Positions 23,001 through 49,314 of a stretch of DNA of 49,314 nt are shown piece by piece. The stretch is from an uncultured Kiloniella sp. (GTDB taxonomy: Bacteria > Pseudomonadota > Alphaproteobacteria > Kiloniellales > Kiloniellaceae). Both the position numbers and the translations under genes were made by a program. The notes under the pieces are model-generated. The model worked only from the letters and a program-made list of their open reading frames with translations. It searched no databases and was not told the DNA's origin. The stretch is from positions 1-49,314 of the forward strand of contig NZ_CAKZMP010000081.1 of assembly GCF_937128705.1 (NCBI RefSeq), written 5' to 3'. Within the stretch, counting starts at the first letter, position 1; each line of letters begins with the position of its first letter.

Positions 23001-23023
23001 TCATAAGCAACTACAAACAGTTA

Positions 23024-29675: not shown

Positions 29676-29780
29676 TTGCCGGCGACGCCTTTCATTTTAA
29701 CGTAAAAAAGACCTTGGAGGACAAAAGCAAGCTGCCCGGGCAGCGCTGGCCTTCCAGGGTCAAACAAATTAGTTTCGAGA

Positions 29781-29865
29781 TGGTGCGGGTGAGAGGACTT
29801 GAACCTCCACGCCTCTCGGCGCCAGAACCTAAATCTGGTGCGTCTACCAATTCCGCCACACCCGC
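29781..29865 (-). tRNA. tRNA-Leu (TAG), CCA encoded
   Basis: Reverse strand GCGGGTGTGGCGGAATTGGTAGACGCACCAGATTTAGGTTCTGGCGCCGAGAGGCGTGGAGGTTCAAGTCCTCTCACCCGCACCA; long variable arm; anticodon TAG. Confidence 0.96.
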
Positions 29866-30014
29866 ATTTCGTCTCGATTTGGAGGGGTTTAATACATCAT
29901 TACGGAGGACGCAACTAAGACTTTTCAATTTTGTTGTTTTTTTTTGATTTTCTCATCACGTTTTTCACTGATCTGCCCAAAAACCCCAGAATACTGCCAA
30001 TCTTTATTTTTCCA

Positions 30015-30758
30015 TCAAGAGCCAAAAACATTCTTAAGAATCTCTGTTGTTCGTGCCACTGGATTCTGACGAATCTGTTCTTCTTCCTTTGCCAGATAAT
30101 AAAACAGCCCTTCCAGCGCCTTAGAAACAGTATAATCAGTCAGATCAGCCTTCACATCCGGTACAAAAGGAATCGCTTTGTAGTTGGAAATCATTTCTTC
30201 ATAACTGTTAACCGCACCAACTTCTGAAAGTGTTCGGTCAATAATCGGTTTAAATTTCGCCTTTAAATCAGGGTTCATTTTTTCCTGAAAATACCTCGTG
30301 GCTTCGTCATTGCGTCCATTATAAATCCGTCGCGCATCTTCCAGCGTCATTTTAGAAATCGTATCAAGGAAAATTTCACGAGCTTCCACCGATGCTTTTT
30401 CTGCGCCACGATTGAGCTTGAGCTCCAGATCATCTGCCATAGAAGACAGGCCGACGGTGCGTAATGCGCCCTGAACTTTCTTCAAACTATCTGGTAAAGG
30501 AATATGAATGTTGCTATCCGCATTGAAACCGTCTTGCAAGCTGACTTGATCAACAACGCGGGAAGAACCAACTCGCAAGGCTTCCTTTAGACCCGTCGAA
30601 ATCTCACCAACACTCAAATTGCTCTGACTTTGATCATCCTGCTTCGCGTCACCGCCCTGGAGTATCTTAAGACCATCACTGAATAAATCAGCCTGTACGG
30701 GCAGCGTAAGAAGCGTAAATGATAAAGCAGCAGAAATTGTAATGGATTTTTTGAACAT
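30015..30758 (-). CDS. DUF4197-like exported protein
   Basis: 247 aa with signal peptide; LSVGEISTGLKEALRVGSSRVVDQVSLQDGFNADSNIHIPLPDSLKKVQGALR ... VSKALEGLFYYLAKEEEQIRQNPVARTTEILKNVFG. Confidence 0.85.
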   Translation of the reverse strand: MFKKSITISAALSFTLLTLPVQADLFSDGLKILQGGDAKQDDQSQSNLSVGEISTGLKEALRVGSSRVVDQVSLQDGFNADSNIHIPLPDSLKKVQGALRTVGLSSMADDLELKLNRGAEKASVEAREIFLDTISKMTLEDARRIYNGRNDEATRYFQEKMNPDLKAKFKPIIDRTLSEVGAVNSYEEMISNYKAIPFVPDVKADLTDYTVSKALEGLFYYLAKEEEQIRQNPVARTTEILKNVFGS

Positions 30759-30982
30759 GAAGATATTCCGAACCTGATAAAAAAGTTACCTAACCGAAGT
30801 TAGCTCTTATAGTTGTTTAGCTTAATTCTTGCTCTAGATGTGAAGAGAGAAACGTAGTGTCCCCACACAAGGAAGAAGAACCGAGCTAAACATCTACACA
30901 TATAACAGATTCGGAAAGCGCGTATATATACGTAAAACATTAAACGCAAAGAAATCACACTCATTAAGAAATATACAAAACA

Positions 30983-31012
30983 CAAAAGGCCCTGAACATT
31001 CAGTTCAAGGCC
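30983..31012 (-). terminator. Putative intrinsic terminator downstream of the 83-aa ORF
   Basis: Reverse strand GGCCTTGAACTGAATGTTCAGGGCCTTTTGTG hairpin with short T-run. Confidence 0.65.
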
Positions 31013-31053
31013 AAGTAATCATATTCCCGATTATCCCCTAAATACTTAAAGCG

Positions 31054-31305
31054 TTAAACCGCCTGGCAGTAACGCTCAGAAAAGCTTGAAAGACCAAGTG
31101 TCCTAAAATCTACGAACCCTGTACTGGTATCCCCATCAACCGATATGGAAAAATGTACATGCGGGATGCCAAAGGTATCCTTCTTTACATTAATAACCTT
31201 AGCTGTTTCCACAACCCGATGGGGATTCACATAACGATATTTGTGACCAACTTTGACTTCATCAGAGTCGCGCTTGAACTTATATAGACTATCAACGAAT
31301 GACAT
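31054..31305 (-). CDS. Hypothetical 83-aa protein
   Basis: MSFVDSLYKFKRDSDEVKVGHKYRYVNPHRVVETAKVINVKKDTFGIPHVHFSISVDGDTSTGFVDFRTLGLSSFSERYCQAV; coherent soluble protein with its own terminator and no competing ORF. Confidence 0.7.
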   Translation of the reverse strand: MSFVDSLYKFKRDSDEVKVGHKYRYVNPHRVVETAKVINVKKDTFGIPHVHFSISVDGDTSTGFVDFRTLGLSSFSERYCQAV

Positions 31306-31441
31306 AATTAAACCCTAAATACGAACACTTTCTATACATGACAGTGCCAATAATCGCAGGTAGCTATTAAATAAAAGTAAATAAATAGATCAAAAACCAC
31401 ATATTTTTTTGTAACTCTAAGGGGTTACAGACTCACACACA

Positions 31442-32920
31442 TCACTCACACCCCCTAAAGGGCACAATAGATTCACCAACACCATTGGGAAGATCATCAG
31501 CAATCATGCCACTTCCAGCCCTCTGTGCGGCATCGCTATGCAACCAAACTCCGGCACAGGCAGCATCAAATACAGATACTCCTTGCGCAAGTAACCCCGT
31601 AATAATACCAGCAAGAACATCACCTGTTCCACCACGTGCCAACCAATAAGGCGCATTCGTATTGATCACGGCCCGCCCATCCGGAGCCGCAATGATCGTA
31701 TCAGCCCCCTTCAAAACAATCGTGCACCCGGCCTTTTCGGCAGCTTCACACGCCCGCTCCAATCGACACCCCTGAGCTTGAGGAAAGAGCCTCTTAAACT
31801 CCCCCTCATGAGGCGTGATAATCACTTGATCATTTAATAACGACAATAACTCTTCAGGATTTCCCTCAAAAACACTGATGGCATCAGCATCAAGCACGAC
31901 AGGTACAAAGCAGTCTTTCAAAGTTGTCGCGACAAAAAATTTAAAAGCATCATTGCGCCCAGCCCCCGGCCCCACAACGAAAGCACTTATCTTTTTATTT
32001 CTCAAAAACGCTCTTAACACCAATGGATCTTTGTGCCCATCCACAATGAGACTCGGTGATGTTACCGCATAGACTAACTTGTCAGATTCGGAACAAAGCA
32101 CTGTCACAAGGCCTGAGCCAACTCGTAACGCAGACATTGCAGCCAATCGTCCCGCACCCGACATCTGGCCACCCCACACGAGACTATGGCCAAAATCGTA
32201 TTTATGGCGATCATAGTCATAGCGAGGGATTTGATCACACCATAGATCCGGATGATTTTCCTGACAGTTCAAAGACAAGCTGGCCGTAACTTCTTTTGGA
32301 ATACCAATATCAGCGACGATAATTTCACCACACAAATCAGCACCAGGGTAAAGACAATGCCCGGTCTTTTTAAGAGAAAAAGTAACAGTTTTTTCCGCAC
32401 GAAAAGCGACATCACCAACAACATTACCCGTATCGCCAGACACGCCACTTGGCACATCGACAGAAACAACACGCTTTTGTCGCGACCACTTAACATAATT
32501 ACAGCAGGCACGATCAAGGGGGCGTGACAGCCCCGCCCCGAAAAGCGCATCGACAATAACGTCGGCTTGCTCAAAGTTTTCCACACCAAGTTCAGGAACA
32601 ACACCCCCTTGCCATTCCAGAGCAAAATGCAGGGCATCACCCTCAAATTCTGATATAGGCAACATTGAATAGAGCTGAACCTCATACCCCCGCTCCCTCA
32701 ACACGGCAGCAGCGACAAAACCATCCCCGCCATTATTGCCAGGACCACAAAGCACAAGCACCCGCCCCTCAGGAATGATATCGCAAACGGCCTGCGCAAC
32801 AGCTTGTCCAGCATGTCGCATCAATGAAATTCCAGACACACCAGATTTTATCGCCAAGCTATCCGCCTGATACATATCGCGAACACTAAGAAGAGAATGA
32901 TCACCCCTACACATCATCAA
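31442..32920 (-). CDS. nnr: Bifunctional NAD(P)H-hydrate epimerase / ADP-dependent NAD(P)H-hydrate dehydratase
   Basis: 492 aa; GRVLVLCGPGNNGGDGFVAAAVL (epimerase) and VLKGADTIIAAPDGRAVINTNAPYWLARGGTGDVLAGIITGLLAQG (dehydratase). Confidence 0.95.
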   Translation of the reverse strand: MMMCRGDHSLLSVRDMYQADSLAIKSGVSGISLMRHAGQAVAQAVCDIIPEGRVLVLCGPGNNGGDGFVAAAVLRERGYEVQLYSMLPISEFEGDALHFALEWQGGVVPELGVENFEQADVIVDALFGAGLSRPLDRACCNYVKWSRQKRVVSVDVPSGVSGDTGNVVGDVAFRAEKTVTFSLKKTGHCLYPGADLCGEIIVADIGIPKEVTASLSLNCQENHPDLWCDQIPRYDYDRHKYDFGHSLVWGGQMSGAGRLAAMSALRVGSGLVTVLCSESDKLVYAVTSPSLIVDGHKDPLVLRAFLRNKKISAFVVGPGAGRNDAFKFFVATTLKDCFVPVVLDADAISVFEGNPEELLSLLNDQVIITPHEGEFKRLFPQAQGCRLERACEAAEKAGCTIVLKGADTIIAAPDGRAVINTNAPYWLARGGTGDVLAGIITGLLAQGVSVFDAACAGVWLHSDAAQRAGSGMIADDLPNGVGESIVPFRGCE

Positions 32921-33087
32921 AAGCCATAATAGTTAGAGAAATTCTTCTAACTATTACCATATCACGAGTGTACTTTCAGGCATTGATATATATGCGCCCA
33001 AGACTTAACGCATCAAGATATACAGCTGAGCAGAAAAGAAAAAACTATGCTGGCCGCGTTATCACCAACAAAATCAACGCTAAAAAA

Positions 33088-34044
33088 TCACCTTTTGGGA
33101 TTAAATTTAGGCTTTGGCACTAACAAACTACCAACACCATTATAGCCTCGGGGATTTTTCTTTGGCCTGAAATTACGGTCATCCTTAAGCGGGCCAATCA
33201 ATGCAACAACGTCCGCAGCAGCAATCGTCTCTGATGAAACAGGCTCTGGCTTAGGGACCGAAACCTCTACAATACTGGTAGACACCTCTTCAGAATCTGC
33301 CTCCACTTTCATATTCTCGGCCTCTAAAGCAATAGCCGAGTCTGAATTTTCAATGGCCTGCTCCCCAATAACAGGCTGCGCGTCTGCCTCTTTCACGGCC
33401 TCAGCTTTCAACTGCGCAAGTTCGGCAAGTTTAACAGATGCAGAGGTACTGCCATTTCTTGCTGCCGCCTGATACCACTTTTCAGCCACTTGATTATCGA
33501 CTGAAACAGACAGACCAAGGCGATAGACTTCGCCCAAGGCGTATTGAGCACCAGACACATTATTATTTGCCGATTGATGGAACCAGAAAACAGCGCGCTC
33601 AAAATTTTGCGCGACGCCTTCGCCACGGAAAAGAGCAAGCCCCAGATTATATTGCGCCATCGGATGGTCCGATTCCGAAGCCATACGCCAATACCCGACG
33701 GCCTTCGCCTGATCGGCCTCGACACCTTTACCCTGCGCATACAAACGGCCAAGATTGTTTTGAGCAGCAGCAACACCCTGACTCGCAGCAGCTTCGTACC
33801 ACTTAATTGCTTCGAGATATTTTGGCTCGCTACCAAACTCTGGTGTTTCGTAAAGCTTCCCCAAACTGTATTGGGCTTTTCCGTGTCCATTCTCTGCTAA
33901 CGGCAACCAGAATGACAAAGCAAGCGCATGATCTCCCTGTTCAAAGGCCGTTACACCGTTCAAATAATCATCTGCTTTTACGATATGTAACGGTGATAGT
34001 GTCATTACACTAACAAGAAGGACACGACTAAGGGTCTTACGCAT
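33088..34044 (-). CDS. Sel1-like/TPR repeat exported protein
   Basis: 318 aa with signal peptide; repeats such as AQYSLGKLYE, AQNNLGRLYAQGKGVEADQAKAVGYWRMA, AQYNLGLALFRGEGVAQNFERAVFWF, AQYALGEVYRLG. Confidence 0.9.
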   Translation of the reverse strand: MRKTLSRVLLVSVMTLSPLHIVKADDYLNGVTAFEQGDHALALSFWLPLAENGHGKAQYSLGKLYETPEFGSEPKYLEAIKWYEAAASQGVAAAQNNLGRLYAQGKGVEADQAKAVGYWRMASESDHPMAQYNLGLALFRGEGVAQNFERAVFWFHQSANNNVSGAQYALGEVYRLGLSVSVDNQVAEKWYQAAARNGSTSASVKLAELAQLKAEAVKEADAQPVIGEQAIENSDSAIALEAENMKVEADSEEVSTSIVEVSVPKPEPVSSETIAAADVVALIGPLKDDRNFRPKKNPRGYNGVGSLLVPKPKFNPKR

Positions 34045-34153
34045 ACTATTGAAACCTACGAATCTAAATTACAGGTGTGAACCTACATATTAGATCAATA
34101 TGGCTCAACAATGACCTTCACATTATGAACATTTATTTAGTTGAAAATTTATT

Positions 34154-34525
34154 TCAGGATCTTATTTGCTCTGGAACATCCTTATCCGGATACAAAGCCA
34201 AACAGGTGTATTGGAGCAATTTTTCACGATTACCCGAAGACATTATAACGCGTACACCGATCTGATTATCCCGTTGCCACATAACCTCACCTTGGAATTC
34301 GCCGGCAATGGAATGTGTCAGCGTAACTTCTTCACCGATATCAGCCCCTAGATTTCCCTTGAGACAAAATCCACCAAAAGACAAATCAGCGATGGTTGTC
34401 ATAACCGCTTGACCGTCTCTATCAACAACTTTTAGGGAAATCGGTTCAGAAGCCGGAAATCTGGGAGCCTGGCGTCTATCTTCACCAGCGATCGCGTTAT
34501 TTTCCATCACACATGCCTTCATCAA
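34154..34525 (-). CDS. PilZ-domain protein
   Basis: 123 aa; EDRRQAPRF ... ADLSFGGFCLKG (RxxxR and D/NxSxxG c-di-GMP binding motifs). Confidence 0.85.
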   Translation of the reverse strand: MMKACVMENNAIAGEDRRQAPRFPASEPISLKVVDRDGQAVMTTIADLSFGGFCLKGNLGADIGEEVTLTHSIAGEFQGEVMWQRDNQIGVRVIMSSGNREKLLQYTCLALYPDKDVPEQIRS

Positions 34526-34688
34526 TGAAACAATTATGTCAAATTAATGATAAATCAAAACAACCTAATCAGTCGTTAAGAAAATAATGGTCGAAAATAA
34601 AATATCTGTGATCGACCAGCAGGCATGAGACACAAAAAAAAGCGGCAAACCAAATGGTTACCGCGCACACCTAAAACCAAAGTTGACA

Positions 34689-34766
34689 TGGGGTGGCTGA
34701 GGGGACTTGAACCCCCGACCCCCGGTACCACAAACCGGTGCTCTAACCAACTGAGCTACAGCCACC
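34689..34766 (-). tRNA. tRNA-His (GTG), CCA encoded; includes G-1
   Basis: Reverse strand G GTGGCTGTAGCTCAGTTGGTTAGAGCACCGGTTTGTGGTACCGGGGGTCGGGGGTTCAAGTCCCCTCAGCCACCCCA; anticodon GTG, C73 with G-1 available. Confidence 0.95.
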
Positions 34767-35249
34767 ACAAGGTCAACGAGGTAACGTATATTCGTTACCG
34801 ATGAGCGAGCTTTTATACACATAGAGTGAAGCCGTCAAGCGCAACTGTACACACAAAGAAAATTGTTTTCACTCTCTTCTTATTATTATGGACACCCACC
34901 AAGCCAGAATAAAAGTAAAACTCCCTTAAACCGTAATATATCGCTAATCGACAGACCCCATCAGGAAGTATGAATTTTCCCTTAGCTCTACCTTAACCTC
35001 ATGAATAACGGATTCCTGACTCCGATCATATTCTCCGGCTTGGTAAGATCACATGAACGCAATAGCACTCAAAAAAAAACCACAAGCCCCTTAGTATAAG
35101 CGATCACGGTCGAATCCTCAGATCACTCAAATGACGTGAATATAATCAAAGACCACCCGCAAACCTAAATTTTAGGCACATAGTGCACAAAAAAAAGGCA
35201 CCCTATCCAAAACATTTTTTTAATACACCTAAAATTAGCCGTTTTAGAG

Positions 35250-35267
35250 TTGGCATGCATCATGCAA
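35250..35267 (+). promoter_or_regulatory. Putative sigma54 (RpoN) -24/-12 promoter of glnBA
   Basis: tTGGCatgcatcaTGCAa: GG-N10-GC spacing matching the RpoN consensus, about 65 nt upstream of glnB. Confidence 0.75.
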
Positions 35268-35271
35268 TTAA

Positions 35272-35670
<399 letters not shown>

Positions 35671-35729
35671 TCTAATCAAATAAGAACACATCCCATAAAG
35701 AAAATACTTTACTACAAAGGAAAGAGCTT

Positions 35730-37139
35730 ATGGCTGACGTAAAGAGCGTCCTTGATATGATCAAGGAAAACGAAGTTGAATTCGTTGATTACCGTTTCAC
35801 AGACCCACGCGGAAAATGGCACCACATGACAATGTGTGCTTCTGCTGTTGGTGAAGACGAGCTGGAAGACGGCATTTTGTTTGATGGCTCCTCCATCGAA
35901 GGCTGGAGAGCAATCAACGAATCAGACATGATCATCAAACCCGATCTTACATCCGCTGTTATGGATCCGTTTTCTGCACAGGCACAAATTATTTTAACCT
36001 GTACAGTATACGAGCCGGATTCAGGCCTACTTTACAATCGCGACCCCCGTGCGACAGCTGAACGTGCCGAAGCATATCTTCAGTCCACAGGTATCGGTGA
36101 TACTGTTTATTTTGGCCCGGAAGCTGAATTCTTCGTATTTGATAATGTACAGTTTGATACAAACAGCCACAGCACATTCTTCCAGTTGGATGACGAAGAA
36201 TCTCCGCACATGACTCGTGCCGAAATCGACGGCGGCAACTCTGGCCACCGTCCACGCGTCAAAGGTGGCTATGTTCCTGTAGGCCCTGTCGATACTGGCA
36301 TCGACCTGCGCGCAGAAATGACCACTGTTCTTAAGGCAATGGGCGTTGAAGCTGAAAAGCATCACCATGAAGTTGCGCCGTCACAGCATGAGCTTGGTGT
36401 TAAGTTCAACACACTTGTTCGCGCTGCTGATGAACTCCAGATCTACAAATATGTCGTACAAAACGTTGCCCACGCTTATGGTAAAACAGCGACATTTATG
36501 CCAAAGCCAGTTGCTGGGGATAATGGTTCCGGTATGCACTGTCACCAGTCAATCTGGAAAGACGGCAAACCAACTTTTGCTGGCGAGAGCTATGCAGGCC
36601 TGTCCGAGACCTGCTTGCACTATATTGGTGGCGTGATCAAACATGCGAAGGCTCTTAACGCCTTCACAAACCCATCAACAAACAGCTACAAACGTCTGGT
36701 TCCTGGTTTTGAAGCACCTGTGCTACTTGCATATTCTGCACGTAACCGCTCTGCATCTTGTCGTATTCCACACGGATCAAACCCGAAAGCAAAACGCGTA
36801 GAAGTTCGCTTCCCAGATCCTGTTGCAAACCCATACCTTGCGTTCTCAGCCCTTCTGATGGCTGGCCTTGATGGAATTCGCAACAAAATTCACCCTGGCG
36901 ATGCAATGGATAAAGATCTTTACGATCTACCAGCAGAAGAGCTTAAAGATATTCCAACGGTTTGTGGCTCTCTCAGAGAAGCGCTAGAAGCGTTGGAAGC
37001 TGATAACGAGTTCCTGCTTGCTGGTGATGTGTTCTCCAAAGATCAGATTGAAGCATACATCAACCTGAAATGGGAAGAAGTACAGCGCTTTGAAATGACA
37101 CCTCACCCTGTTGAGTTCGATATGTATTACAGCGCTTGA
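35730..37139 (+). CDS. glnA: Glutamine synthetase type I
   Basis: 469 aa; [28 protein letters not shown], and adenylylation-type region [24 protein letters not shown]. Confidence 0.98.
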
Positions 37140-37212
37140 TGCTGTAATATAATTGATTATCCCCAGGCTTCTTTTCTCGAAAGCCCTCATCTTCAAGGGA
37201 TAATACATCAAA

Positions 37213-37242
37213 CAAAAGCCCCCGAATGATCGGGGGCTTTTG
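37213..37242 (+). terminator. Intrinsic terminator after glnA
   Basis: caaaagcccccgaatgatcgggggcttttg hairpin with T-run. Confidence 0.9.
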
Positions 37243-37425
37243 TCATTTATAGGTAGTTCTATCTACGTAAATCACTCAATTACAACTGAACGAAATTATT
37301 CTTATCTCTTTAATCAGCTAGGTATGCCTTGGTGCACGGTCACTTCACATCCCCCGAAGTGACACCCCCCTTTGCACGGGGTGTATCTAGCACCCCCAAT
37401 CAAACTGCCTGCCAAGCACTAAGAT

Positions 37426-38067
37426 TTAAGTTGCGACCAAGGCTTTGTCTTTTCCTTCTGCCAAAAGACAAAGCCTCACCATTTCCGGTAAGCTTCTGAC
37501 ATCCAGCTTTTCCATTATTCTGGCGCGATGAACCTCAACTGTTCGAGTGCTGATACCCAGCTCATAGGCAATGACCTTATTCAAAAGCCCAAGAACAAGC
37601 TTATCCAAAACCTCTTTTTCTCGAGGAGTGAGTTTTTCAATAACATCAACAGCATGAGCTTTAAGCTCTGATTCTTCTTGCTGCGCCTCGCTTTGCTGAA
37701 GAGCTGAAGTCACAATCTCGGTGATTTCCGTATCAGAGAATGGTTTTTCAACAAAACTAAAGGCCCCTGCCTTCATTGTTTCAACAGCTTTTGGAATATC
37801 GCCGTGACCAGAGATCATGACGACAACAAGATTACTATCTGATGCTTTAATTTGTTTAAGTGCCTCAACACCATCCATACCGGGCATCCGTATATCCAAG
37901 AGGATACAACCAGAATGACCAAGCAGGTTTTCAGAAAAAAATTCTTCTGCTGATGCAAAAGTCTGAATAGAAGCCTCAAAAGAGGACGTACTTAATAGCA
38001 ATTCAGTAGATTCACGTACAGCATCGTCGTCATCAATAATGTATATATACATATCGTCTCTCAGCAA
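37426..38067 (-). CDS. FixJ/NarL-type two-component response regulator
   Basis: 213 aa; IDDDDAVRESTELLL, LLDIRMPGMDGVEAL, KPF, and LuxR HTH LTPREKEVLDKLVLGLLNKVIAYELGISTRTVEVHRARIMEKL. Confidence 0.93.
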   Translation of the reverse strand: MLRDDMYIYIIDDDDAVRESTELLLSTSSFEASIQTFASAEEFFSENLLGHSGCILLDIRMPGMDGVEALKQIKASDSNLVVVMISGHGDIPKAVETMKAGAFSFVEKPFSDTEITEIVTSALQQSEAQQEESELKAHAVDVIEKLTPREKEVLDKLVLGLLNKVIAYELGISTRTVEVHRARIMEKLDVRSLPEMVRLCLLAEGKDKALVAT

Positions 38068-38272
38068 AACCGTTTGAACTCTGTCTCATTCTACAACAAA
38101 CTATCAAACAGGTATCTAAATATTCCAAAGCCTTCCAAGCATTATTTACAACAATAAGAAAGACAACAAGCTCTAGTTTGCTTTCCTGATCACAAGCAGA
38201 ATAGATTTGATCCCGACAACCAGAAGACAGCTCGCGCTAGATTGCAAATAATATGATTATCGACCACAGCAA

Positions 38273-40333
38273 ATGCTGACATTTGCGACCAAAGCCTTTT
38301 CGAAAACAACCACGATACTGGTGGCTGTTTTGTTTTGTGTGGTCGCCCTTAAAGTTTCAGATCCATGGGCCATAAGAATTCTGCGTCATAACACTTTTGA
38401 TGTGTTTCAAAAGATAAGCCCAAATCAAGAAGAAACTCAGAATATTGTGCTGGTAGAGATTGATGAAAAGAGCCTCAAAGCAAAAGGGCAATGGCCTTGG
38501 CAAAGGAATATTCTTGCAGATCTTTCTCATAAAATCCTACAGCAATCCCCACGCGCCCTAGCAATAGATATCGTTTTTCCTGAACCGGACAGAACTTCCC
38601 CCAGTCTTATCATTCAGAACAATCCGACACTCGCACAGCAATTAACGCCGCTTAAGCAGAACTTCCCCTCATACGATGACATTCTTGCCGATGCACTCAA
38701 TGGCCATCCTGTTATTTTGGGCATGGCCACAGGTTATGGCACAGATCAGCGCGCCCCGGTCGAGACAACAACAAGTATAAAAATGTACGGGGATGATGTC
38801 AGGTCGACCTTACCACAGTTTAACTATGTCCTCAGAAACATAGAGCAGCTTGAAAAGGCAACAACACAAGGCGTCAACAATCTGGCCTCAGAACGAGACG
38901 GGATTATTCGACAGCTCCCCTTGCTATACAATGTAAACGGTACAATCATCCCGTCATTTGAGATAGAAACCCTGCGCGTCGTTAATAATGCAGACCAAAT
39001 TGAATTAACGACAGAAAACAATAAGCTCAAAAGTATCAAATTAAATTCATTCGATTTGACCATGAGCAATCGAGGTAAACCCTGGATCTATTTCAGTAAA
39101 AATTCCGAATACATAAACGTATCAGCCTATGAAACACTTACAGACGCAATCGACGACACTCTTTTTAAAGATAAAATTGTCATTCTAGGGGTAACTGCCC
39201 TTGGTATAGCCGATCACACACTAACGCCAGTAGGATCAAGCTTGTCAGGCCTAGCAGTTCACGCTCAGGCTCTGGATAACATGCTGACCGACACGCTCCT
39301 CACGCGTCCCTCCTCTTTCTTCTGGATAGAATTAAGTTACCTGCTTTTAATTGGTATCATTTTCCTTGTCGTTCACAAACGACACGGAGCCTTAGAAGTT
39401 ACCGTTACATTTGCTGTTTTATGCTGGATAACCGTCCTTGCATCTTCTGGCCTGTTCGCTTTGAGATTAGAGCTCTTTGACCCTTCCCTGCCGATGATAC
39501 TGACATTAATCATGTTTATGATTTCCGTTTCCACCGGTTTTGTCATGGAACAAGCACGCAGGCGAGAAGAAGCCAGAATCGCCGCACAAATGGAACGCGA
39601 AAAAGAAGCACGGATCAGAAAACTACAAAATGAGCTACTTCACACCATCGGCAAAAGCTCAGTCCAGAAGCTTTCTTCATCTATTGCACACGAACTCAAT
39701 CAGCCCCTTGCAGCCATTTATAACTTCACAAACGCAGCCAAAAAAATTCTGGATAAAGGCAATCTTGATCAAGAAACAATCAAACCTGTTTTAGAGAAAA
39801 TTCTAAAGCAAGCTGACCGCGGGAATGAAATTCTACGAACAATCCGGGATGCAGCCGAAACGGGCAAGACCAGCCTGGTGCCTCTTAATATAAACCAGAT
39901 AATTATCGAAGAAATTGAATTACTTAATGATTCTGACTTAGGAGAGAAGGTTACCATAAACACAAACCTTGCCCCAAACATTACAAATGGCACAGCAAAC
40001 GAAATTCAATTACACCAAGTCCTCCTTAACCTGATTCGTAATGCAAAACAGGCAACAGAAGAAGTCGATAAAAATAACCATGAAATACTAATTTCAACAT
40101 GCGAAAACCCCAAAGGTATGATTGAGGTTGCCGTAAGCGATACAGGCCCAGGACTAACATCTGATCAGAAAAAAGATCTCTTCAAACCTTTCTTTACGAC
40201 AAAAGAACAAGGCACAGGATTAGGCTTGGCAATCAGCCGCTCGATTATAGAAGCTTGGGGCGGTAATCTATGGGTAGAAGACAACAAAAAAGGGGGAGCA
40301 ACTTTCAAGTTTACTCTCCCCCTTCGTGACTAA
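38273..40333 (+). CDS. CHASE2-domain sensor histidine kinase
   Basis: 686 aa; CHASE2-like periplasmic domain (IVLVEIDEKSLKAKGQWPWQRNILADL ... ALAIDIVFPEPD), TM segments, His box IAHELNQPLAAIYNFTNAAKKIL, HATPase DTGPGLTSDQKKDLFKPFFTTKEQGTGLGLAISRSIIEAWGG. Confidence 0.93.
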   Translation: MLTFATKAFSKTTTILVAVLFCVVALKVSDPWAIRILRHNTFDVFQKISPNQEETQNIVLVEIDEKSLKAKGQWPWQRNILADLSHKILQQSPRALAIDIVFPEPDRTSPSLIIQNNPTLAQQLTPLKQNFPSYDDILADALNGHPVILGMATGYGTDQRAPVETTTSIKMYGDDVRSTLPQFNYVLRNIEQLEKATTQGVNNLASERDGIIRQLPLLYNVNGTIIPSFEIETLRVVNNADQIELTTENNKLKSIKLNSFDLTMSNRGKPWIYFSKNSEYINVSAYETLTDAIDDTLFKDKIVILGVTALGIADHTLTPVGSSLSGLAVHAQALDNMLTDTLLTRPSSFFWIELSYLLLIGIIFLVVHKRHGALEVTVTFAVLCWITVLASSGLFALRLELFDPSLPMILTLIMFMISVSTGFVMEQARRREEARIAAQMEREKEARIRKLQNELLHTIGKSSVQKLSSSIAHELNQPLAAIYNFTNAAKKILDKGNLDQETIKPVLEKILKQADRGNEILRTIRDAAETGKTSLVPLNINQIIIEEIELLNDSDLGEKVTINTNLAPNITNGTANEIQLHQVLLNLIRNAKQATEEVDKNNHEILISTCENPKGMIEVAVSDTGPGLTSDQKKDLFKPFFTTKEQGTGLGLAISRSIIEAWGGNLWVEDNKKGGATFKFTLPLRD

Positions 40334-40351
40334 AAGGTATTTGTATGTATT

Positions 40352-40984
40352 TTAACGCAATACCATATCAACTCTACGGTTGAACGCTCGGCCACCTTGC
40401 CCTTCACCGCCACCAAGTGGGTTTTCCTCGCCCAGAGACTTGATATCAATAGACCCACCATCGATTCCGTTCTCGATTAGCTTGTCACGCAAATTATCCG
40501 CCCTGCGAAGGCCCAGCTCTTTATTGTAATCTGAAGCGCCAATGGTGTCAGTATGACCAATAAGGCTGATATCCACAGTTTCTCTTGTGGCAATTTCAGC
40601 TAAAACGGATGCAAAAATCACATTTGATTCCTCTGTTAGCTCTGCGCTATCAAAGCCAAAGAAGAAGAAGAATGATAGTGGCTTTGGCGGTTGAGCTGCC
40701 TCTGTTTCAGCAACCAACTTGGCAACAATATCATTTGAAAGTTCTCTTGGTTTTTTAGGTGCTTTGTCATCTGGAATTTCTACGACGGTATTAACCGAAG
40801 AAATAGTTTGCACACCCGCATCGTTTCGAACACTGACTTCACCAACACTTCCATCTTCCTCTGGCAACAGAATAACATAGTTACCACGAGGCGCCGAACA
40901 GCCAGCGAGAACCAAGAACAAAATTGATAATAGGAATTTAGATATAAATTTAGGCATTAAACGCTCCCCCTTGTCCACTGACAT
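40352..40984 (-). CDS. OmpA-family lipoprotein
   Basis: 210 aa; lipobox LVLAGC; C-terminal OmpA domain SLIGHTDTIGASDYNKELGLRRADNLRDKLIENG. Confidence 0.92.
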   Translation of the reverse strand: MSVDKGERLMPKFISKFLLSILFLVLAGCSAPRGNYVILLPEEDGSVGEVSVRNDAGVQTISSVNTVVEIPDDKAPKKPRELSNDIVAKLVAETEAAQPPKPLSFFFFFGFDSAELTEESNVIFASVLAEIATRETVDISLIGHTDTIGASDYNKELGLRRADNLRDKLIENGIDGGSIDIKSLGEENPLGGGEGQGGRAFNRRVDMVLR

Positions 40985-41457
40985 TATTCTGCACGTACAA
41001 ACATCTTAGTGCCCCGAACAGATATTGTTCCGGCAGGCGTTGATATTTGTAAATCCTCATCTGGGTTTTTAGTCAGCTTTGCGATAATGCCCGAAATATA
41101 TAAAAGCGTTCCTTCAAAAAGCTGAACAGCAAAAGCTAGCTTTTTGTTATCAGGATCGAATTCAAAATTATTCAATTTCAGGGAAGAATTACTCCCCAAA
41201 GAAACAAGGGTGTTATCTCGAAAAGAAACCCCTAACGATGATTCATTACGTGTTTTAACAATGTCATCCTTGTACAAAGGGTCACCGATTTGAAGAATCC
41301 GCTCGGCACCCGCACTTTCAACATAACAGGCACCATTTAATACCTTTACATAAGCTATTGCACTTTCATCTGCCTGCGCCACTGAAGTCGACGCAAACAA
41401 AAGCGACATAAAAGCCAATTTTAAAAATGACGAGCTTAATTTCCTGACAAGAAACAT
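40984..41457 (-). CDS. FecR-domain exported protein
   Basis: 157 aa with signal peptide; QIGDPLYKDDIVKTRNESSLGVSFRDNTLVSLGSNSSLKLNNF ... ISTPAGTISVRGTKMFV; 1-nt overlap with the OmpA gene. Confidence 0.9.
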   Translation of the reverse strand: MFLVRKLSSSFLKLAFMSLLFASTSVAQADESAIAYVKVLNGACYVESAGAERILQIGDPLYKDDIVKTRNESSLGVSFRDNTLVSLGSNSSLKLNNFEFDPDNKKLAFAVQLFEGTLLYISGIIAKLTKNPDEDLQISTPAGTISVRGTKMFVRAE

Positions 41458-41888
41458 CGTTTCACAACCTTTTAGTTCTATAAAAAATTCAGGTACGTCT
41501 TAACGCAAATCAACCCTGTAATAACAAGTATCAATTCAACATCCTTGATATTACCATATCGTGTAATTCAACTTACATCAGTAACAAATATCAATCTAGA
41601 AGTATAAGACAACAGCTAAATATTTTCGAACAAAAGCCATCAAAAACATAATCTTTAAATTACGTACATATCAAAAAACCGTTGATGTAGAAATCTAAAC
41701 ATTATGCATAATACTGAAACAATACTTTAACCATTCCCATAAATATTACTCTGCACATTGCCTTAAAATTTGCCGTCGCAAGCCAAAGTTGAGAGAAAAA
41801 ATAAAATCATCAACTTACTTAAAGACACTTGTAAAATTACATGGTATTTTAATTAAAATTTATTCACAAATTTACATTACAGGCTTCA

Positions 41889-42095
41889 ATGTATATTCCG
41901 CCTATCTACACACGGACGGGAACAATCATTACCCCTGAACTCCGCGCGGACCGGGGGCCAGCCTTTAAGCCTGCGACAGCCGACACAATAGAAGTACAGA
42001 AAATCAAAACCATAAATCCTGATAATTCTGGTAGTCAAAAATTACTCGCGCCGCCTACGGATGGCAGAGGAAGTCGAGTTGATATTTTGGTTTAG
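41889..42095 (+). CDS. Hypothetical 68-aa protein
   Basis: MYIPPIYTRTGTIITPELRADRGPAFKPATADTIEVQKIKTINPDNSGSQKLLAPPTDGRGSRVDILV; alone in a long intergenic gap. Confidence 0.5.
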   Translation: MYIPPIYTRTGTIITPELRADRGPAFKPATADTIEVQKIKTINPDNSGSQKLLAPPTDGRGSRVDILV

Positions 42096-42201
42096 ATATA
42101 AGAGATCAGGATTTAAGCCTGTCCCGACTTAATAACGCAATCCAGGATACTTTAAACAAGGCTTGTTAGGCACCAAACTTAGACAAAACACCGGCCCAGA
42201 C

Positions 42202-42240
42202 ATAACAAAAGCGCGGTCAAACGATCCGCGCTTTTGTTAT
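42202..42240. terminator. Bidirectional intrinsic terminator
   Basis: ataacaaaagcgcgg...ccgcgcttttgttat: 15-bp perfect inverted repeat between convergent genes. Confidence 0.85.
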
Positions 42241-42263
42241 GTGTCATTCTTTGCAACAGCTTA

Positions 42264-42428
42264 TTAGGCCGCAATACCTTCCCGCCAAGCGGTAGAAGAT
42301 TTGCATGTCTTGCAAATGCGTTCGCCAGGCCATTCGCTCACGAACTTTTCCCGACACTTCAGACAACTACGTTTTTTCTTTTCATACACCCGGTCAGAAA
42401 CCGGCTTTGTATTGGACTGATCGCTCAT
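42264..42428 (-). CDS. Small zinc-ribbon protein (54 aa; below the ORF-track cutoff)
   Basis: Reverse-strand MSDQSNTKPVSDRVYEKKKRSCLKCREKFVSEWPGERICKTCKSSTAWREGIAA with CxxC...CxxC; GGAGGGAT Shine-Dalgarno upstream. Confidence 0.8.
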   Translation of the reverse strand: MSDQSNTKPVSDRVYEKKKRSCLKCREKFVSEWPGERICKTCKSSTAWREGIAA

Positions 42429-42836
42429 TAATCCCTCCGTAGGATCCGGTAACTTAATAACCTCAAGAACCGTAGTCCTAGGTAAATAGATAATTAGTTA
42501 AGTTCTTCTGCAGAAAAAAACAGAAGAAAAGGTCTCCAAAGCTCGTCAAGAGCCATCACTATCTGACACCCTATGGACAAATGCACAGTAGACAGAACTA
42601 TTTAAAATCATAAAATAGCACTATATCTATACATTTTGTATAGCGTCTCAAATTGTGGCGATTCCGACAGTCGACTACATAGAGACTTATGTAGTAAGAA
42701 ACGGAACGGAGACTCAAACAAAGGCACTTTGTGCATTGCACAAGTATTAAATAATGTAAGTGAGAAAAAAAATCAACTGCCGTTGTGTGAAATTTGACGA
42801 TGTCAACGTATTTTTCCGTCGTTTTTTTGTAATATA

Positions 42837-43220
42837 TTATTCCACAACGAAAGGTTTTACCTGCCCTCCATAGCCATGCACGCTATCATGAGCACGTATA
42901 AAAACTTTTTTTACACCTTTGGGAATCTCAACGCCAGATAAAGATCTGGTAAAGGGTTGCTCATTTTCATGAGGATGATGAAGCACGCGTGTTGCTAAAA
43001 TGGTTTCGTCTTCGGTGATGACCTCCCAACGATTAGCATAGTGATCCCAACCTGTGTCATCGTGACGCACTGTCACATCAAAGCGCCAACCACGATCGCC
43101 ATCCTTGTAACCTTTAACATTAATAACATCTGCCTCGCCTGCAACCACAGGATTCAAAAAAGAAAAAAGCAATATAAGAGGCAACAGTATATAACGGATA
43201 ATGGCAGAAATTTTTTGCAT
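42837..43220 (-). CDS. Hypothetical exported protein
   Basis: ORF 42837..43250; likely start MQKISAIIRYILLPLILLFSFLNPVVAG (signal peptide), then a soluble domain with VTVRHDDTGWDHYANRWEV and RVLHHPHENEQPFTRSL. Confidence 0.8.
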   Translation of the reverse strand: MQKISAIIRYILLPLILLFSFLNPVVAGEADVINVKGYKDGDRGWRFDVTVRHDDTGWDHYANRWEVITEDETILATRVLHHPHENEQPFTRSLSGVEIPKGVKKVFIRAHDSVHGYGGQVKPFVVE

Positions 43221-43264
43221 AACGTCCCCAAGAAGAATTCTATCAAACAATAACAGTTCGCTAT

Positions 43265-43489
43265 CTATAACAGAGGTAATGCAGTAATGCTTTTCACAAC
43301 CCGGTGAGTTTTATGAAATACAAAACCACAGATGAGAATCCAGTCACCGCCATCAAGCATTACCAAATTCAACTTTGCCCCACACCTTACCCTTTCGGAG
43401 TCTAGGCGATATACATCAGGAATAAAATGCTCTTGGGCGAAACAAAACGTGAATACACTATCATCTGGAACTTGCCTTAGCCTGATCAT
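43265..43489 (-). CDS. Hypothetical 74-aa protein (part of a longer ORF)
   Basis: MIRLRQVPDDSVFTFCFAQEHFIPDVYRLDSERVRCGAKLNLVMLDGGDWILICGFVFHKTHRVVKSITALPLL; fills the gap between parE and the exported protein. The upstream extension of the ORF is antisense to parE and unlikely real. Confidence 0.4.
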   Translation of the reverse strand: MIRLRQVPDDSVFTFCFAQEHFIPDVYRLDSERVRCGAKLNLVMLDGGDWILICGFVFHKTHRVVKSITALPLL

Positions 43490-43506
43490 CAACACATAAT
43501 GTTCCC

Positions 43507-45498
43507 ATGTCAGATCTATTTCAGTCAGCCCCCACAAATGAAACCACGGTTGATTATTCAGCCAAGGATATTCAAGTTCTCGAAGGTTTAGAACCTGTTC
43601 GGCATCGCCCCGGTATGTATATCGGCGGCAATGATGAACGCGCCATGCATCATCTTGTTGCAGAGGTTCTTGATAATGCCATGGATGAGGCAGTAGCAGG
43701 CCATGCGACACGAATCGATATTGAACTTGGTCTGGATAACCATATAACAATCAAAGACAACGGACGTGGCATTCCCGTCGATGCTCATCCAAAATATACG
43801 GACAAATCTGCACTGGAAGTCATCCTGACCACCCTGCACTCTGGTGCCAAGTTTACACAGGATGCCTATGCAACATCCGGCGGCCTTCATGGCGTAGGTG
43901 TTTCCGTCGTAAATGCTCTGTCTGATGCCATGTATGTTGAAGTCGCAAGAGATCGACAGCTTTACCGACAGGAATACAGCAAAGGTCATCCGCAAACTAA
44001 GCTGGAGTTGATTGGCAAAACCAACAATCGACGCGGAACGACAATTTCATTCCACCCGGACGCCGAAATTTTTGAGCCCGGTTGTAAATTCCAACCCGCC
44101 CGTCTCTACAAGATGACGCGATCAAAGGCCTACCTTTACAAAGGCGTTCAAATCCGTTGGACATGTGAACCTTCCCTTGTCGAGGGTAGTAATATTCCCC
44201 CAAGCGAAGTGATCCACTTCCCAAACGGCTTGAAAGATTTTATTGATTCACAGCTTGGCGAACGCCCTGCCCTAACATCTGAATCCTTTGCTGGTGAAGC
44301 TGAATTTTCTGATGGTCAGGGACGTGCGGAATGGGCCATTTGCTGGCCCCGAGACGAACAAGGCTTCGTCAATTCCTATTGTAATACAATCCCGACACCT
44401 GATGGCGGCAGCCATGAAAGTGGTATGCGCTCTGGCCTCCTAAAAGGTCTCAAGGCATACGGAGAACTTACAGGAATCAAAAAAGCGGCCCAAATTACAG
44501 GCGATGATCTTCTGAACGGCAGTATTTCCGTTCTCTCCGTCTTTATCAGGGACCCGCAATTTCAGGGACAAACCAAAGATAGACTCGCCACCCCTCTTGC
44601 TGCCAAATTAACCGAAGCAACTATTAAAGATCACTTTGATCTTTGGTTGGCCAGTAATCCTGAAAGTTCCAGACTTTTACTGGAACGTATTATAGAGCGC
44701 AGTGAAGATCGGTTAAGAAGAAGACAAGATAAAGAAACAAGTCGGAAAACTGCGACGCGTAAAGTTCGCTTACCCGGAAAGCTTGCCGACTGTAGTAGCA
44801 ACAGATCAAACGATACTGAAATCTTCTTGGTAGAGGGCGATTCAGCTGGTGGCTCTGCCAAGCAAGCACGTGATAGAAAAACACAGGCGATTCTTCCCCT
44901 TCGTGGAAAAATTCTAAACGTAGCCTCTGCAACAGCGGACAAAATCAAAGCAAACCAAGAGATCGCAGATATTAGCTTGGCACTAGGCTGTGGCACCAAA
45001 GGCCAGTTCGATAAAGACAAGCTTCGTTACGAACGCGTCATAATCATGACGGATGCCGACGTTGATGGTGCTCATATTGCTTCGTTGCTGATGACTTTCT
45101 TTTATCAGGAAATGCCAGGTCTGATCGAAAGCGGTCATCTCTTTCTGGCAATGCCACCGCTTTATCGTCTTACACAAGGCAGTAAAACGGTCTATGCCAT
45201 GGATGACGAGCATCGACTTGAACTGGAAAAAACTGAACTGACTGGACGCGCGAAAATCGAAGTCAGTCGCTTTAAAGGTCTTGGTGAAATGCCACCTCGA
45301 CAACTTAAAGAAACAACAATGGACCCATCCAAAAGAGTCCTCTTGCGCGTTACCGTTCATCACAATGATGATTTTGATCCTGCCGAAAGCCAAAGAGCCG
45401 CAGCGGACAGAGTAAATTGCCTAATGGGTAAGAAACCGGAACTACGGTTTAACTTTATCCAGGACAACGCAAAGTTCGTTTCAGATATCGATATCTGA
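43507..45498 (+). CDS. parE: DNA topoisomerase IV subunit B
   Basis: 663 aa; LEGLEPVRHRPGMYIGG, HHLVAEVLDNAMDEAVAGHA, EIFLVEGDSAGGSAKQARDRKTQAILPLRGKILNV, IIMTDADVDGAHI. Confidence 0.97.
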   Translation: MSDLFQSAPTNETTVDYSAKDIQVLEGLEPVRHRPGMYIGGNDERAMHHLVAEVLDNAMDEAVAGHATRIDIELGLDNHITIKDNGRGIPVDAHPKYTDKSALEVILTTLHSGAKFTQDAYATSGGLHGVGVSVVNALSDAMYVEVARDRQLYRQEYSKGHPQTKLELIGKTNNRRGTTISFHPDAEIFEPGCKFQPARLYKMTRSKAYLYKGVQIRWTCEPSLVEGSNIPPSEVIHFPNGLKDFIDSQLGERPALTSESFAGEAEFSDGQGRAEWAICWPRDEQGFVNSYCNTIPTPDGGSHESGMRSGLLKGLKAYGELTGIKKAAQITGDDLLNGSISVLSVFIRDPQFQGQTKDRLATPLAAKLTEATIKDHFDLWLASNPESSRLLLERIIERSEDRLRRRQDKETSRKTATRKVRLPGKLADCSSNRSNDTEIFLVEGDSAGGSAKQARDRKTQAILPLRGKILNVASATADKIKANQEIADISLALGCGTKGQFDKDKLRYERVIIMTDADVDGAHIASLLMTFFYQEMPGLIESGHLFLAMPPLYRLTQGSKTVYAMDDEHRLELEKTELTGRAKIEVSRFKGLGEMPPRQLKETTMDPSKRVLLRVTVHHNDDFDPAESQRAAADRVNCLMGKKPELRFNFIQDNAKFVSDIDI

Positions 45499-45509
45499 TA
45501 TAAACCAAG

Positions 45510-45577
45510 CCATAATTCAAATAAAAAAAGCACTGCCATTCATCTCGATGGCAGTGCTTTTTTTATTTGAATTATGG
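45510..45577. terminator. Bidirectional intrinsic terminator with unusually long perfect stem
   Basis: ccataattcaaataaaaaaagcactgccat / tcatctcg / atggcagtgctttttttatttgaattatgg: 30-bp perfect inverted repeat, 8-nt loop. Confidence 0.9.
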
Positions 45578-45707
45578 TTGGCTCAATATGCGATAATCCC
45601 GACTTTGCCCCTTTTTTGTCACAAAGCCCCACCCTTTGGGCATAAAGCCGCGAGATAAGAATACAAAGAAACAAAACAACTTTATTCTTAGATGACAGGG
45701 CAGCGGC

Positions 45708-47978
45708 ATGCTGAAAACAATCACACAGAAACAATTAAACTTTTCGATTAAACAACAATTTATCAGGGGGCTATTGGCTGCCTCTATAATTGTTATGGGC
45801 ATAGGTCCCTCGGTTGCAAATGGACTGGTGTCCCCAAATGACATGAAAAGAGGCTCGTTGTTATTGAAAACAACGGAAGCCGGTAAAATGGTCGAAGCCA
45901 TTCAGCTTGCAACCAATGTAGAGATTGACATCAACGGACCGATTGCCCGAACGAAAGTCACCCAACGCTTTAGAAACCCTTCTGATGGCTGGGTTGAAGG
46001 AACCTATGTTTTTCCTCTTCCTGAAACATCAGCTGTAGATACACTCAAAATGCAAATCGGTGATCGTTTCATCGAAGGCATTATCAAGCCCAAAGAAGAG
46101 GCTCGAAAAATTTATGATGACGCCAAAAGAGAAGGCAAAAAAGCCAGTTTGGTTGAACAGTTACGCCCCAATCTCTTTACCAACTCGGTCGCAAATATAG
46201 GGCCGCAAGAAATCATCGTTGTACAGATTGAATATCAAGAAACGGTCAGGCAATCGAATGGTCTTTTCTCGCTCCGTTTCCCAATGGTTGCAGCCCCCCG
46301 CTACAACCCAAAGCCACGCATTGTCGAAAGTGTAAATTTTGAGAATGATGAACAGTGGGGAACAGTAAAAGATTCCGTTCCGGATCGTGAAGAGATAACG
46401 TCTCCAGTAATAAATCCGGCAAGACAAGCACAAAGCAATCCGGTGTCTTTGAATGTCAACTTGGCTTCCGGCTTCCCCATTGCTGAAATCAAAAGCCCGT
46501 TCCACAACATTATTACAGACTATAAATCCAAAGATCAGGTTGAAGTCTCTCTCAGTGATCAAGTCGTCCCTGCAGATCGCGATTTTGAACTAAACTGGAA
46601 AGCCGAACCAAAAAAATCTCCCCGCGTAGCCCTATTTAAGGAAACAATTGGTCAAGATGACTATTTCCTTGCCTTTGTTACTCCCCCCAAACTGGCTCAA
46701 CTTGCTCAGGATGAAATAACAACACCAGACAGGGAAGTTATCTTTGTTATTGATAACTCAGGCTCTATGGCTGGCCCTTCTATGAGACAGGCAAAGGAAA
46801 GCTTGCTTTTAGCTCTTGCAAAGTTGAGCGATCAGGATCGCTTTAACGTCATAAGATTCGATGACACCTACGAAGTCCTTTTCCCTTCAGCTCTTGAAGC
46901 CAATACTGGCAATCTTGATATCGCAAAAAGATTTGTCTCATCTCTCGAAGCTGATGGCGGAACAGAAATGTTACCTGCGCTGGAAGCCGCCTTGGAAGAC
47001 CAAACCCCGCACGAAAAATCGACTTTACGCCAGATTGTATTCTTGACGGATGGTGCCATTGGCAATGAAAAACAAATGTTTGATACCATTGTAAAAAAAC
47101 GTGGTCGTTCCAGAATCTTTACCGTCGGTATTGGTTCTGCCCCCAACAGTCACTTTATGAACCGCGCATCCAGCTACGGCAAAGGAACCTTTACCCATAT
47201 CGGATCAGAACAACAAGTCAGATCCCGTATGAACGAACTATTTACAAAGCTTGAAACCCCGGTGTTAACCGATCTTCAGGCAAACTGGCCAGAAAGTAAT
47301 CAACCCGAGAAAAACAATGTAGAAATGAGCCCACGTCACCTCCCCGATCTCTACAGTGGTGAGCCCGTCGTTATCTTGGCTAAAGCCAAAAATACGGTTC
47401 GATCAGTCAAAGAAACACTGGATGTTTCTGGCCAGTTCTCAAACCAACCCTGGACAATTAAATTACCGCTCCACAAAGCACAGCAAGGCAATGGTATTGG
47501 CAAACTATGGGGCAGAAAGAGAATTTCAGAAATAGAAGGACAGTACTTTCAGGCCGATAATTGGAATGTGCTTGATCAATACATACTCAATACAGCTATG
47601 AAATACGGCCTAATCAGCAAAATGACGAGCCTTGTCGCAGTTGATATCACCCCGACGCGGCCAACTGGTACAGATTACAATAGTCAGAAGATAGCGTTAA
47701 ACCTTCCTGCTGGTTGGGATTTTGAGAAAGTCTTTGGGCCTGATTACACTTCGGCTCCAGAACAACTTGAAAATGCCAGCATTTCATCCCTGCATGCCTT
47801 AGCTGCAAGTGATACCCCCTTGGCAAATCTAGCCTCTGCAAAAGCTAAATCCATTCCCTTACCTGCAACAGCAACAACAGCGGAATTAAAAATCATTCTT
47901 GGTATTCTTCTGTTACTGGCAACGGTATTCTTTATGCTGGTCTCCCGTAAAATGCTTCTAAATGGACAGCGTCCATAG
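45708..47978 (+). CDS. Marine proteobacterial sortase target-type protein (VIT + VWA domains)
   Basis: 756 aa; signal peptide, VIT domain (VTQRFRNPSDGWVEGTYVFPLPETSAVDTLKMQIGDRFIEGIIKPKEEARKIYDDAKREGKKASLVEQLRPNLFTNSVANI), VWA MIDAS VIDNSGSM, C-terminal LPATA followed by TM and basic tail. Confidence 0.93.
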   Translation: MLKTITQKQLNFSIKQQFIRGLLAASIIVMGIGPSVANGLVSPNDMKRGSLLLKTTEAGKMVEAIQLATNVEIDINGPIARTKVTQRFRNPSDGWVEGTYVFPLPETSAVDTLKMQIGDRFIEGIIKPKEEARKIYDDAKREGKKASLVEQLRPNLFTNSVANIGPQEIIVVQIEYQETVRQSNGLFSLRFPMVAAPRYNPKPRIVESVNFENDEQWGTVKDSVPDREEITSPVINPARQAQSNPVSLNVNLASGFPIAEIKSPFHNIITDYKSKDQVEVSLSDQVVPADRDFELNWKAEPKKSPRVALFKETIGQDDYFLAFVTPPKLAQLAQDEITTPDREVIFVIDNSGSMAGPSMRQAKESLLLALAKLSDQDRFNVIRFDDTYEVLFPSALEANTGNLDIAKRFVSSLEADGGTEMLPALEAALEDQTPHEKSTLRQIVFLTDGAIGNEKQMFDTIVKKRGRSRIFTVGIGSAPNSHFMNRASSYGKGTFTHIGSEQQVRSRMNELFTKLETPVLTDLQANWPESNQPEKNNVEMSPRHLPDLYSGEPVVILAKAKNTVRSVKETLDVSGQFSNQPWTIKLPLHKAQQGNGIGKLWGRKRISEIEGQYFQADNWNVLDQYILNTAMKYGLISKMTSLVAVDITPTRPTGTDYNSQKIALNLPAGWDFEKVFGPDYTSAPEQLENASISSLHALAASDTPLANLASAKAKSIPLPATATTAELKIILGILLLLATVFFMLVSRKMLLNGQRP

Positions 47979-47980
47979 CC

Positions 47981-48356
47981 ATGAAAACCTCTAGTACTAT
48001 AAAGCCTACCTTACAAATACGAAGACCCTTTCAGAGGCCCCCTCAACATCTGGTAAGAGGAGTGAGAAAGCTCCTCTTACTCGCATTATTCATGGCTGGG
48101 TTTGCCCTGATCGGGGATGGTCTCTACATCAAATTAAAAGCCGTTCTGGCGCAACACCTGTTACAACAGGCCTGGCAGGAAACCTTAACCACCCAGACAC
48201 CACAAAGAGCATGGTCATGGGCCGATACATATCCTGTCGCAGAAATCAGCCTTCCCGATCTGGCTATAGATCCTGTAATCGCCTTACGCGGCAGTAGCGG
48301 CGAGGCCTTGGCATTCGCCCCCGGTCATTTGGAGAACACTGCCCGCCCCGGTCAGC
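47981..48356 (+). pseudogene. Class GN-like sortase, N-terminal part only (apparently truncated; end approximate)
   Basis: Follows the sortase target gene after 2 nt. Translation has TM then WSWADTYPVAEISLPDLAIDPVIALRGSSGEALAFAPGHLENTARPGQ, resembling the start of GN sortases, then turns unrelated (HVPQPRCRNSLSSASPSSADDLLG*). The catalytic His/Cys regions are absent in all forward frames downstream. Confidence 0.75.
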
Positions 48357-48509
48357 ATGTTCCTCAACCCCGCTGCCGCAATAGTCTATCCTCAGCCAGC
48401 CCAAGCAGTGCTGACGACTTACTGGGATGAGCCGGAGAAATTCGAGCAGATGAACCGTGAGTTGAAAAAGTTCATTCGCAAAGTCGAAGATGAAGGAATT
48501 CACGAGTAG
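48357..48509 (+). CDS. Hypothetical 50-aa ORF, possibly 5'-truncated (first of a phage-like small ORF cluster)
   Basis: MFLNPAAAIVYPQPAQAVLTTYWDEPEKFEQMNRELKKFIRKVEDEGIHE; amphipathic C-terminus; no clear Shine-Dalgarno before this ATG. Confidence 0.45.
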   Translation: MFLNPAAAIVYPQPAQAVLTTYWDEPEKFEQMNRELKKFIRKVEDEGIHE

Positions 48510-48593
48510 CGACCAAATAACGCGCATTGCGTGTGTTATAGTAAAGTTGCCTAAATTTCAACCAGTGATACAATCAAGAAAACAGGAGGCGTT

Positions 48594-48797
48594 ATGAAAT
48601 CAATACTTGCAACTGCTATCAAAGCTGGACTGGTGTACATGATTCGAAATTATGCCGCCTCACTGGTGTTTGACATGATTGTTGAGCAGGCCGAAAAGCT
48701 CTCACGTCGCACTGATACTGACATCGACGATAAGGCTGTGGCCATGCTGAAAAACGACAAGAGCGACTTCATAGCAGCCATCAAGGGCAGAATCTAA
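48594..48797 (+). CDS. Small phage-like protein (67 aa)
   Basis: AGGAGG Shine-Dalgarno; MKSILATAIKAGLVYMIRNYAASLVFDMIVEQAEKLSRRTDTDIDDKAVAMLKNDKSDFIAAIKGRI. Confidence 0.75.
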   Translation: MKSILATAIKAGLVYMIRNYAASLVFDMIVEQAEKLSRRTDTDIDDKAVAMLKNDKSDFIAAIKGRI

Positions 48798-48825
48798 TTA
48801 AAGCCAAACTTAAAGGTGTGGAATT

Positions 48826-49041
48826 ATGAGTTCAAAACTACTTAAAGATGCAACACAAGAAGAGCTTCTTGCTGAATTGATTGAGCGCTCTGGAGGTCTT
48901 AGTCAAGCTCCTGATACTATTCGCTATTGCAGTACCATGCGAGAAGCGCTAGTTGGGATTGGTTATGATGAAACAGCTAGTATTTTCTTAGATCAAGAAT
49001 CATACGAAGCGTTAGTTGATATTGTCGGGGCTGATAAATGA
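48826..49041 (+). CDS. Small phage-like protein (71 aa)
   Basis: MSSKLLKDATQEELLAELIERSGGLSQAPDTIRYCSTMREALVGIGYDETASIFLDQESYEALVDIVGADK; compact, stop overlaps next start (ATGA). Confidence 0.7.
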   Translation: MSSKLLKDATQEELLAELIERSGGLSQAPDTIRYCSTMREALVGIGYDETASIFLDQESYEALVDIVGADK

Positions 49042-49151
49042 AAACCAAAGCGAAAGCAACAAGTTACAAGCCGAAGAAGCCGAAGAAGAAAGCCAAAAAG
49101 GTCGCGGGCGGTTTTGACTACAACATCACAAAGCGACGGAAGTCAGCATGA
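49038..49151 (+). CDS. Small highly basic protein (37 aa; below the ORF-track cutoff)
   Basis: MKTKAKATSYKPKKPKKKAKKVAGGFDYNITKRRKSA; ATGA overlaps with both neighbours indicate translational coupling. Confidence 0.65.
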   Translation: MKTKAKATSYKPKKPKKKAKKVAGGFDYNITKRRKSA

Positions 49152-49314
49152 TTTTACTCTTCGCGGTCATTGCGCTGGTTATATTCATATTCACCGCCAA
49201 GAGACTGGCTCTCGTATCATTTATAGCGTTTTTCATTGCACAATTCATATCGACGCGAAGTGTAGTGACGTTCAGCTATGAGGCTGCTGTAATCAGCATG
49301 ATGATTCTGAACTT
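49148..49314 (+). CDS. Hydrophobic membrane protein (partial, runs off window)
   Basis: MILLFAVIALVIFIFTAKRLALVSFIAFFIAQFISTRSVVTFSYEAAVISMMILN...; ATGA overlap with upstream ORF. Confidence 0.6.
   Translation, partial: MILLFAVIALVIFIFTAKRLALVSFIAFFIAQFISTRSVVTFSYEAAVISMMILN

Follow-up and report, generated by a model that had tools for sequence, protein, structure and literature searches.

A phage-derived extension within a class GN sortase gene at the end of a Kiloniella contig, a probable chimeric join

We identified an abrupt switch from host to phage DNA near the end of a 49,314-bp stretch of DNA from an uncultured Kiloniella sp. (the window), and this join is probably an assembly or library chimera, that is, an artefact instead of a biological insertion. 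The switch lies inside a class GN sortase gene, with the last Kiloniella-matching base at 48357 and the first foreign base at 48358. Since the window is one complete contig (C81) of a genome assembled in 442 contigs, the junction is located just 957 bp from a contig end. The original prediction, made from the letters of the window, had described an insertion junction with an integrated phage or plasmid and had named an assembly join as the alternative; it is this alternative that fits better, and the ending that it had seen is that of a contig, not a point in the middle of a replicon.

The sortase gene and its neighborhood

Positions 1 to 48357 on the forward strand are collinear over their full length with a single contig of K. 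majae, in four blastn blocks of 82-90% identity that follow one another in order (1-22483, 22744-34874, 35132-41671 and 41801-48357). This ordered alignment with one contig identifies the region as ordinary Kiloniella-type chromosome, and the nearest named relatives of the contig are Kiloniella species. Among its genes are, all on the forward strand, parE, coding for DNA topoisomerase IV subunit B (43507-45498; TIGR01055, 789 bits, above the cut-off), and the gene of a marine proteobacterial sortase target protein (45708-47978; TIGR03788, 809.8 bits with a cut-off of 551.65). The target protein harbors VIT and VWA domains according to Pfam and is the dedicated partner of the sortase encoded directly downstream; such adjoining genes for a sortase and its target are already known from Gram-negative bacteria (PMC3237569). 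The C-terminus of the target protein (47830-47978) carries a variant LPXTG sorting signal, in which LPATATT precedes a hydrophobic stretch and the tail behind it is basic.

The frame at 47981-48430 on the forward strand encodes 149 aa, of which residues 37-126 match positions 2-90 of the 174 positions in the NCBIfam profile TIGR03784 ('class GN sortase'). Its score of 98 bits is below the cut-off of 158.25, and the K. majae orthologue reaches 200.9 bits; a match to half of the profile at such a score indicates that the sortase gene is cut in half. Judged by this profile match, the frame is a fragment of a member of the class GN sortases, with the 5' part of the gene (about 126 codons) occupying 47981-48357 and ending at the junction. 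Comparison with relatives carrying an intact sortase, which had been proposed as a check, found orthologous open frames of 208-260 aa intact in seven relatives of the genus. Thus, the N-terminal half on this contig, the target gene upstream and the intact orthologues all fit the known pair of a class GN sortase (TIGR03784, marine_sortase) and a VIT/VWA target (TIGR03788), but, unlike in that system, the gene on this contig stops after about 126 codons, with the remainder found on another contig and about 150 bp missing in between.

The DNA identity to four Kiloniella orthologues is 80-85%, and in all four alignments it ends exactly at 48357. Beyond the equivalent position, the Kiloniella orthologues run on through the HRDTHF region to TCWPF, whereas neither of these catalytic His and Cys regions was found after 48357 in the 49,314-bp contig. 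The original prediction was therefore right on three points, namely, that the frame starts as a class GN sortase, that it switches sharply to foreign sequence and that no sortase core follows the switch. A short ORF of 50 aa (48357-48509) opens at the junction, and its ATG straddles the two sequences, the A being the last base of the sortase part and the TG belonging to the foreign DNA. Since this start codon was created by the join, the ORF is a by-product of it. The exact junction sequence has no match among the IMG/VR contigs.

An observation apart from this locus concerns a class GN-type sortase that shares 45% identity with the Kiloniella one and comes from a record with the title 'Bacillus subtilis strain SK6B4'. 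The matched residues are the same as in a Pseudochrobactrum match in the same list, and the record looks mislabelled or contaminated.

The foreign tail and its viral relatives

The 957 bp after the junction (48358-49314) are phage DNA, matching IMG/VR contigs of P22-like podoviruses at 82-91% identity across three small genes and a promoter-like site. Three of these uncultured virus contigs served as the relatives of the tail: IMGVR_UViG_3300006467_000144 (38.7 kb), IMGVR_UViG_3300007276_000191 (30.5 kb) and IMGVR_UViG_3300011126_000046 (22.3 kb). Parts of the module of small ORFs in the tail, and its promoter-like site, are 80-91% identical to these relatives at the DNA level, including a 277-bp stretch with 91% identity to IMGVR_UViG_3300006467_000144. 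In the INPHARED phage collection there was no DNA match to the tail and only one marginal tblastn protein match; in Rfam no structured RNA matched the tail, and the matches elsewhere were all tRNAs. Among the family genomes searched, no other member carries the tail segment. A plasmid origin was considered and rejected, as the tail has no PLSDB match.

All the features of the tail lie on the forward strand. The segment at 48358-48509, in the frame of the 50-aa ORF, probably stems from the 3' portion of a phage gene, the 5' portion having been cut off by the junction; residues 19-46 of the ORF match the C-terminal end of phrog_10463 very weakly (E 0.039), the ORF at 48357-48509 has no relative among the IMG/VR viral contigs, and the bases 48358-48546 have no match in the IMG/VR relative phages. 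A sigma-70-like promoter, TTGCCT-N16-TACAAT, follows at 48547-48574, and the site recurs at the same place in related phages. Behind it lie an ORF of 67 aa (48594-48797), which along its entire length shares 94% identity with one in IMGVR_UViG_3300007276_000191 and which matches phrog_2738 (E 4e-6); an ORF of 71 aa (48826-49041) with a relative in IMGVR_UViG_3300006467_000144 (53% identity over 64 aa); a basic ORF of 37 aa (49038-49151), 81-89% identical in three phage records; and the 5' part of a membrane-protein gene (49148-49314), cut by the contig end, which is 91-96% identical in three phage records and 149 aa long in the relatives.

The region 48547-49314 has the appearance of a mosaic module that precedes the terminase genes and in which very short phage ORFs follow a single conserved promoter-like site. 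Its counterparts in the relative phage sequences compared are at 4952-5480, 1-550 and 4383-5167 of their respective segments. The short ORFs differ between records by gain, loss or reordering: the 67-aa-type and 71-aa-type ORFs stand in one order in the tail and in the opposite order in IMGVR_UViG_3300006467_000144, and IMGVR_UViG_3300007276_000191 lacks the 71-aa ORF at the position of the module.

The relatives carry terminase, portal, head and ejection genes, an O-like replication protein, a NinG-type gene and an Ant-type anti-repressor. On our reading of this gene content we base the putative labels P22-like podovirus, ERF-type recombinase and YqaJ-type exonuclease. IMGVR_UViG_3300006467_000144 is bounded by a direct terminal repeat of 127 bp, so this podovirus genome, about 38.6 kb in length, is probably complete; it encodes an anti-repressor and no recognisable integrase. 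Searches for the tyrosine integrase domain PF00589 gave no match in the three relative records, while the controls were positive; the ORFs of at least 180 aa in IMGVR_UViG_3300006467_000144 included no recombinase by inspection, and a subset of its ORFs scanned against PHROGs were structural, replication, modification or regulatory, with no recombinase among them. The literature on Kiloniella phages yielded nothing bearing on this case.

The remaining sortase and phage sequences, and the origin of the join

The rest of the sortase gene is present elsewhere in the genome, as the original prediction had allowed. Contig C170 (5,574 bp) begins inside the gene, with the TCWPF region and the C-terminus encoded by its bases 2-121, which is part of the half that had been proposed for a search. 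From base 2 onward, 4.6 kb of the contig align collinearly with K. majae at 84%, downstream of the matching sortase position, and its start shows no phage or other foreign bases. By K. majae coordinates the gap between 48357 and base 1 of C170 is about 150 bp, including the HRDTHF region, and this missing stretch is on no contig of the genome. The remainder of the phage is absent as well. A DNA search of the genome with the 30.5-kb and 38.7-kb relatives (about 69 kb in total) recovered only the tail and four short matches at the position of a phage tRNA-Arg, and a search with the terminase protein of one relative gave no match. Because an alignment of these two relatives extends over 12.1 kb, the searches should have picked up any resident phage of this group. 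The phage tRNA-Arg (anticodon TCT) is itself encoded at 7267-7343 of a searched phage sequence, and the roughly 800 bases after it hold no convincing ORF and no Rfam match.

A contig made chimeric by an assembly misjoin shows the same abrupt switch to an unrelated genome near its end, while its true continuation sits on a different contig, and here the host locus likewise resumes past the join, on C170. One junction only, close to a contig end, and a host sequence that resumes cleanly after about 150 bp point to a contig end that was wrongly extended. We suggest that the chromosomal contig met a weakly covered or ambiguous spot within the sortase gene, and that its end would then have been extended by 957 bp from a P22-like podovirus in the same sample, during library preparation or assembly. 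The join would thus have arisen in vitro or in silico, and the sortase gene would most likely be unbroken in the organism, its 3' end resuming at base 1 of C170 and the 150 bp between, intact in the cell, being left unassembled. Two considerations speak against a chimera. The Ant-type anti-repressor, NinG and O-like replication protein of the relatives are usual in temperate phages, so that one can conceive of a temperate relative that does encode an integrase, and the contig of a true prophage could have been left out if the genome was binned from a metagenome.

A real insertion, in which a P22-like phage or part of one integrated into the sortase gene, about 150 bp were removed or separated and the assembly or bin lost the body of the phage, appears unlikely. 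It agrees with the foreign sequence being genuine phage DNA that includes a conserved gene module and a promoter-like site, with phage genes lying directly beside host DNA and with the lambdoid-type regulatory genes of the relatives; moreover, assemblies are often interrupted at repeats or at elements that free phage also carry. However, if the insertion were at 48357, the next sortase base should join the other end of the phage, and no contig holds that 150-bp stretch; a second host-phage junction was not found, C170 starting with clean sortase sequence. Neither direct nor inverted repeats were seen at 48200-49314, which covers the one junction in the sequence, and on this side a direct repeat (att core) of the kind for which the original prediction had proposed a search did not show. 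Furthermore, no integrase occurs in the 957 bp or in the relatives, the remaining phage genome is not in the assembly, and the site is within a protein-coding gene, not in a tRNA gene or another usual attachment site. Of the claim of an integrated phage or plasmid, the phage nature of the DNA thus held up, and the integration and the plasmid were not supported. The more specific version, in which a marine P22-like podovirus lacking any recognisable integrase really inserted by an unspecified route with the loss of about 150 bp and switched off this copy of the class GN sortase, seems slightly less probable still; if it were true, the insertion would disable the strain's copy of a surface-protein sorting enzyme.

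The capture of a phage fragment of about 1 kb through illegitimate recombination, stably disrupting the sortase as a remnant, would account for the 957 bp seen and for the lack of any other phage part in the genome, but we regard it as very improbable, because the conserved phage ORFs are intact, with up to 91-96% protein identity to virus contigs, and do not look decayed, and because the segment stops inside an ORF at the contig end, not at host sequence. There is hardly any chance that the sequence after 48357 is a normal sortase variant, the outcome that had been named in advance as contradicting a junction. Nothing was found in its favor, and it is ruled out by the genus orthologues, which continue with HRDTHF and reach TCWPF, and by the match of the sequence after 48357 to phage DNA.

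If the join is chimeric, as we consider probable, it has consequences for how the contig is used. This genome, once annotated, would be credited with a truncated sortase and a prophage attachment that are probably both unreal, and any inference from this contig that Kiloniella is the host of the podovirus would depend on a chimeric join.
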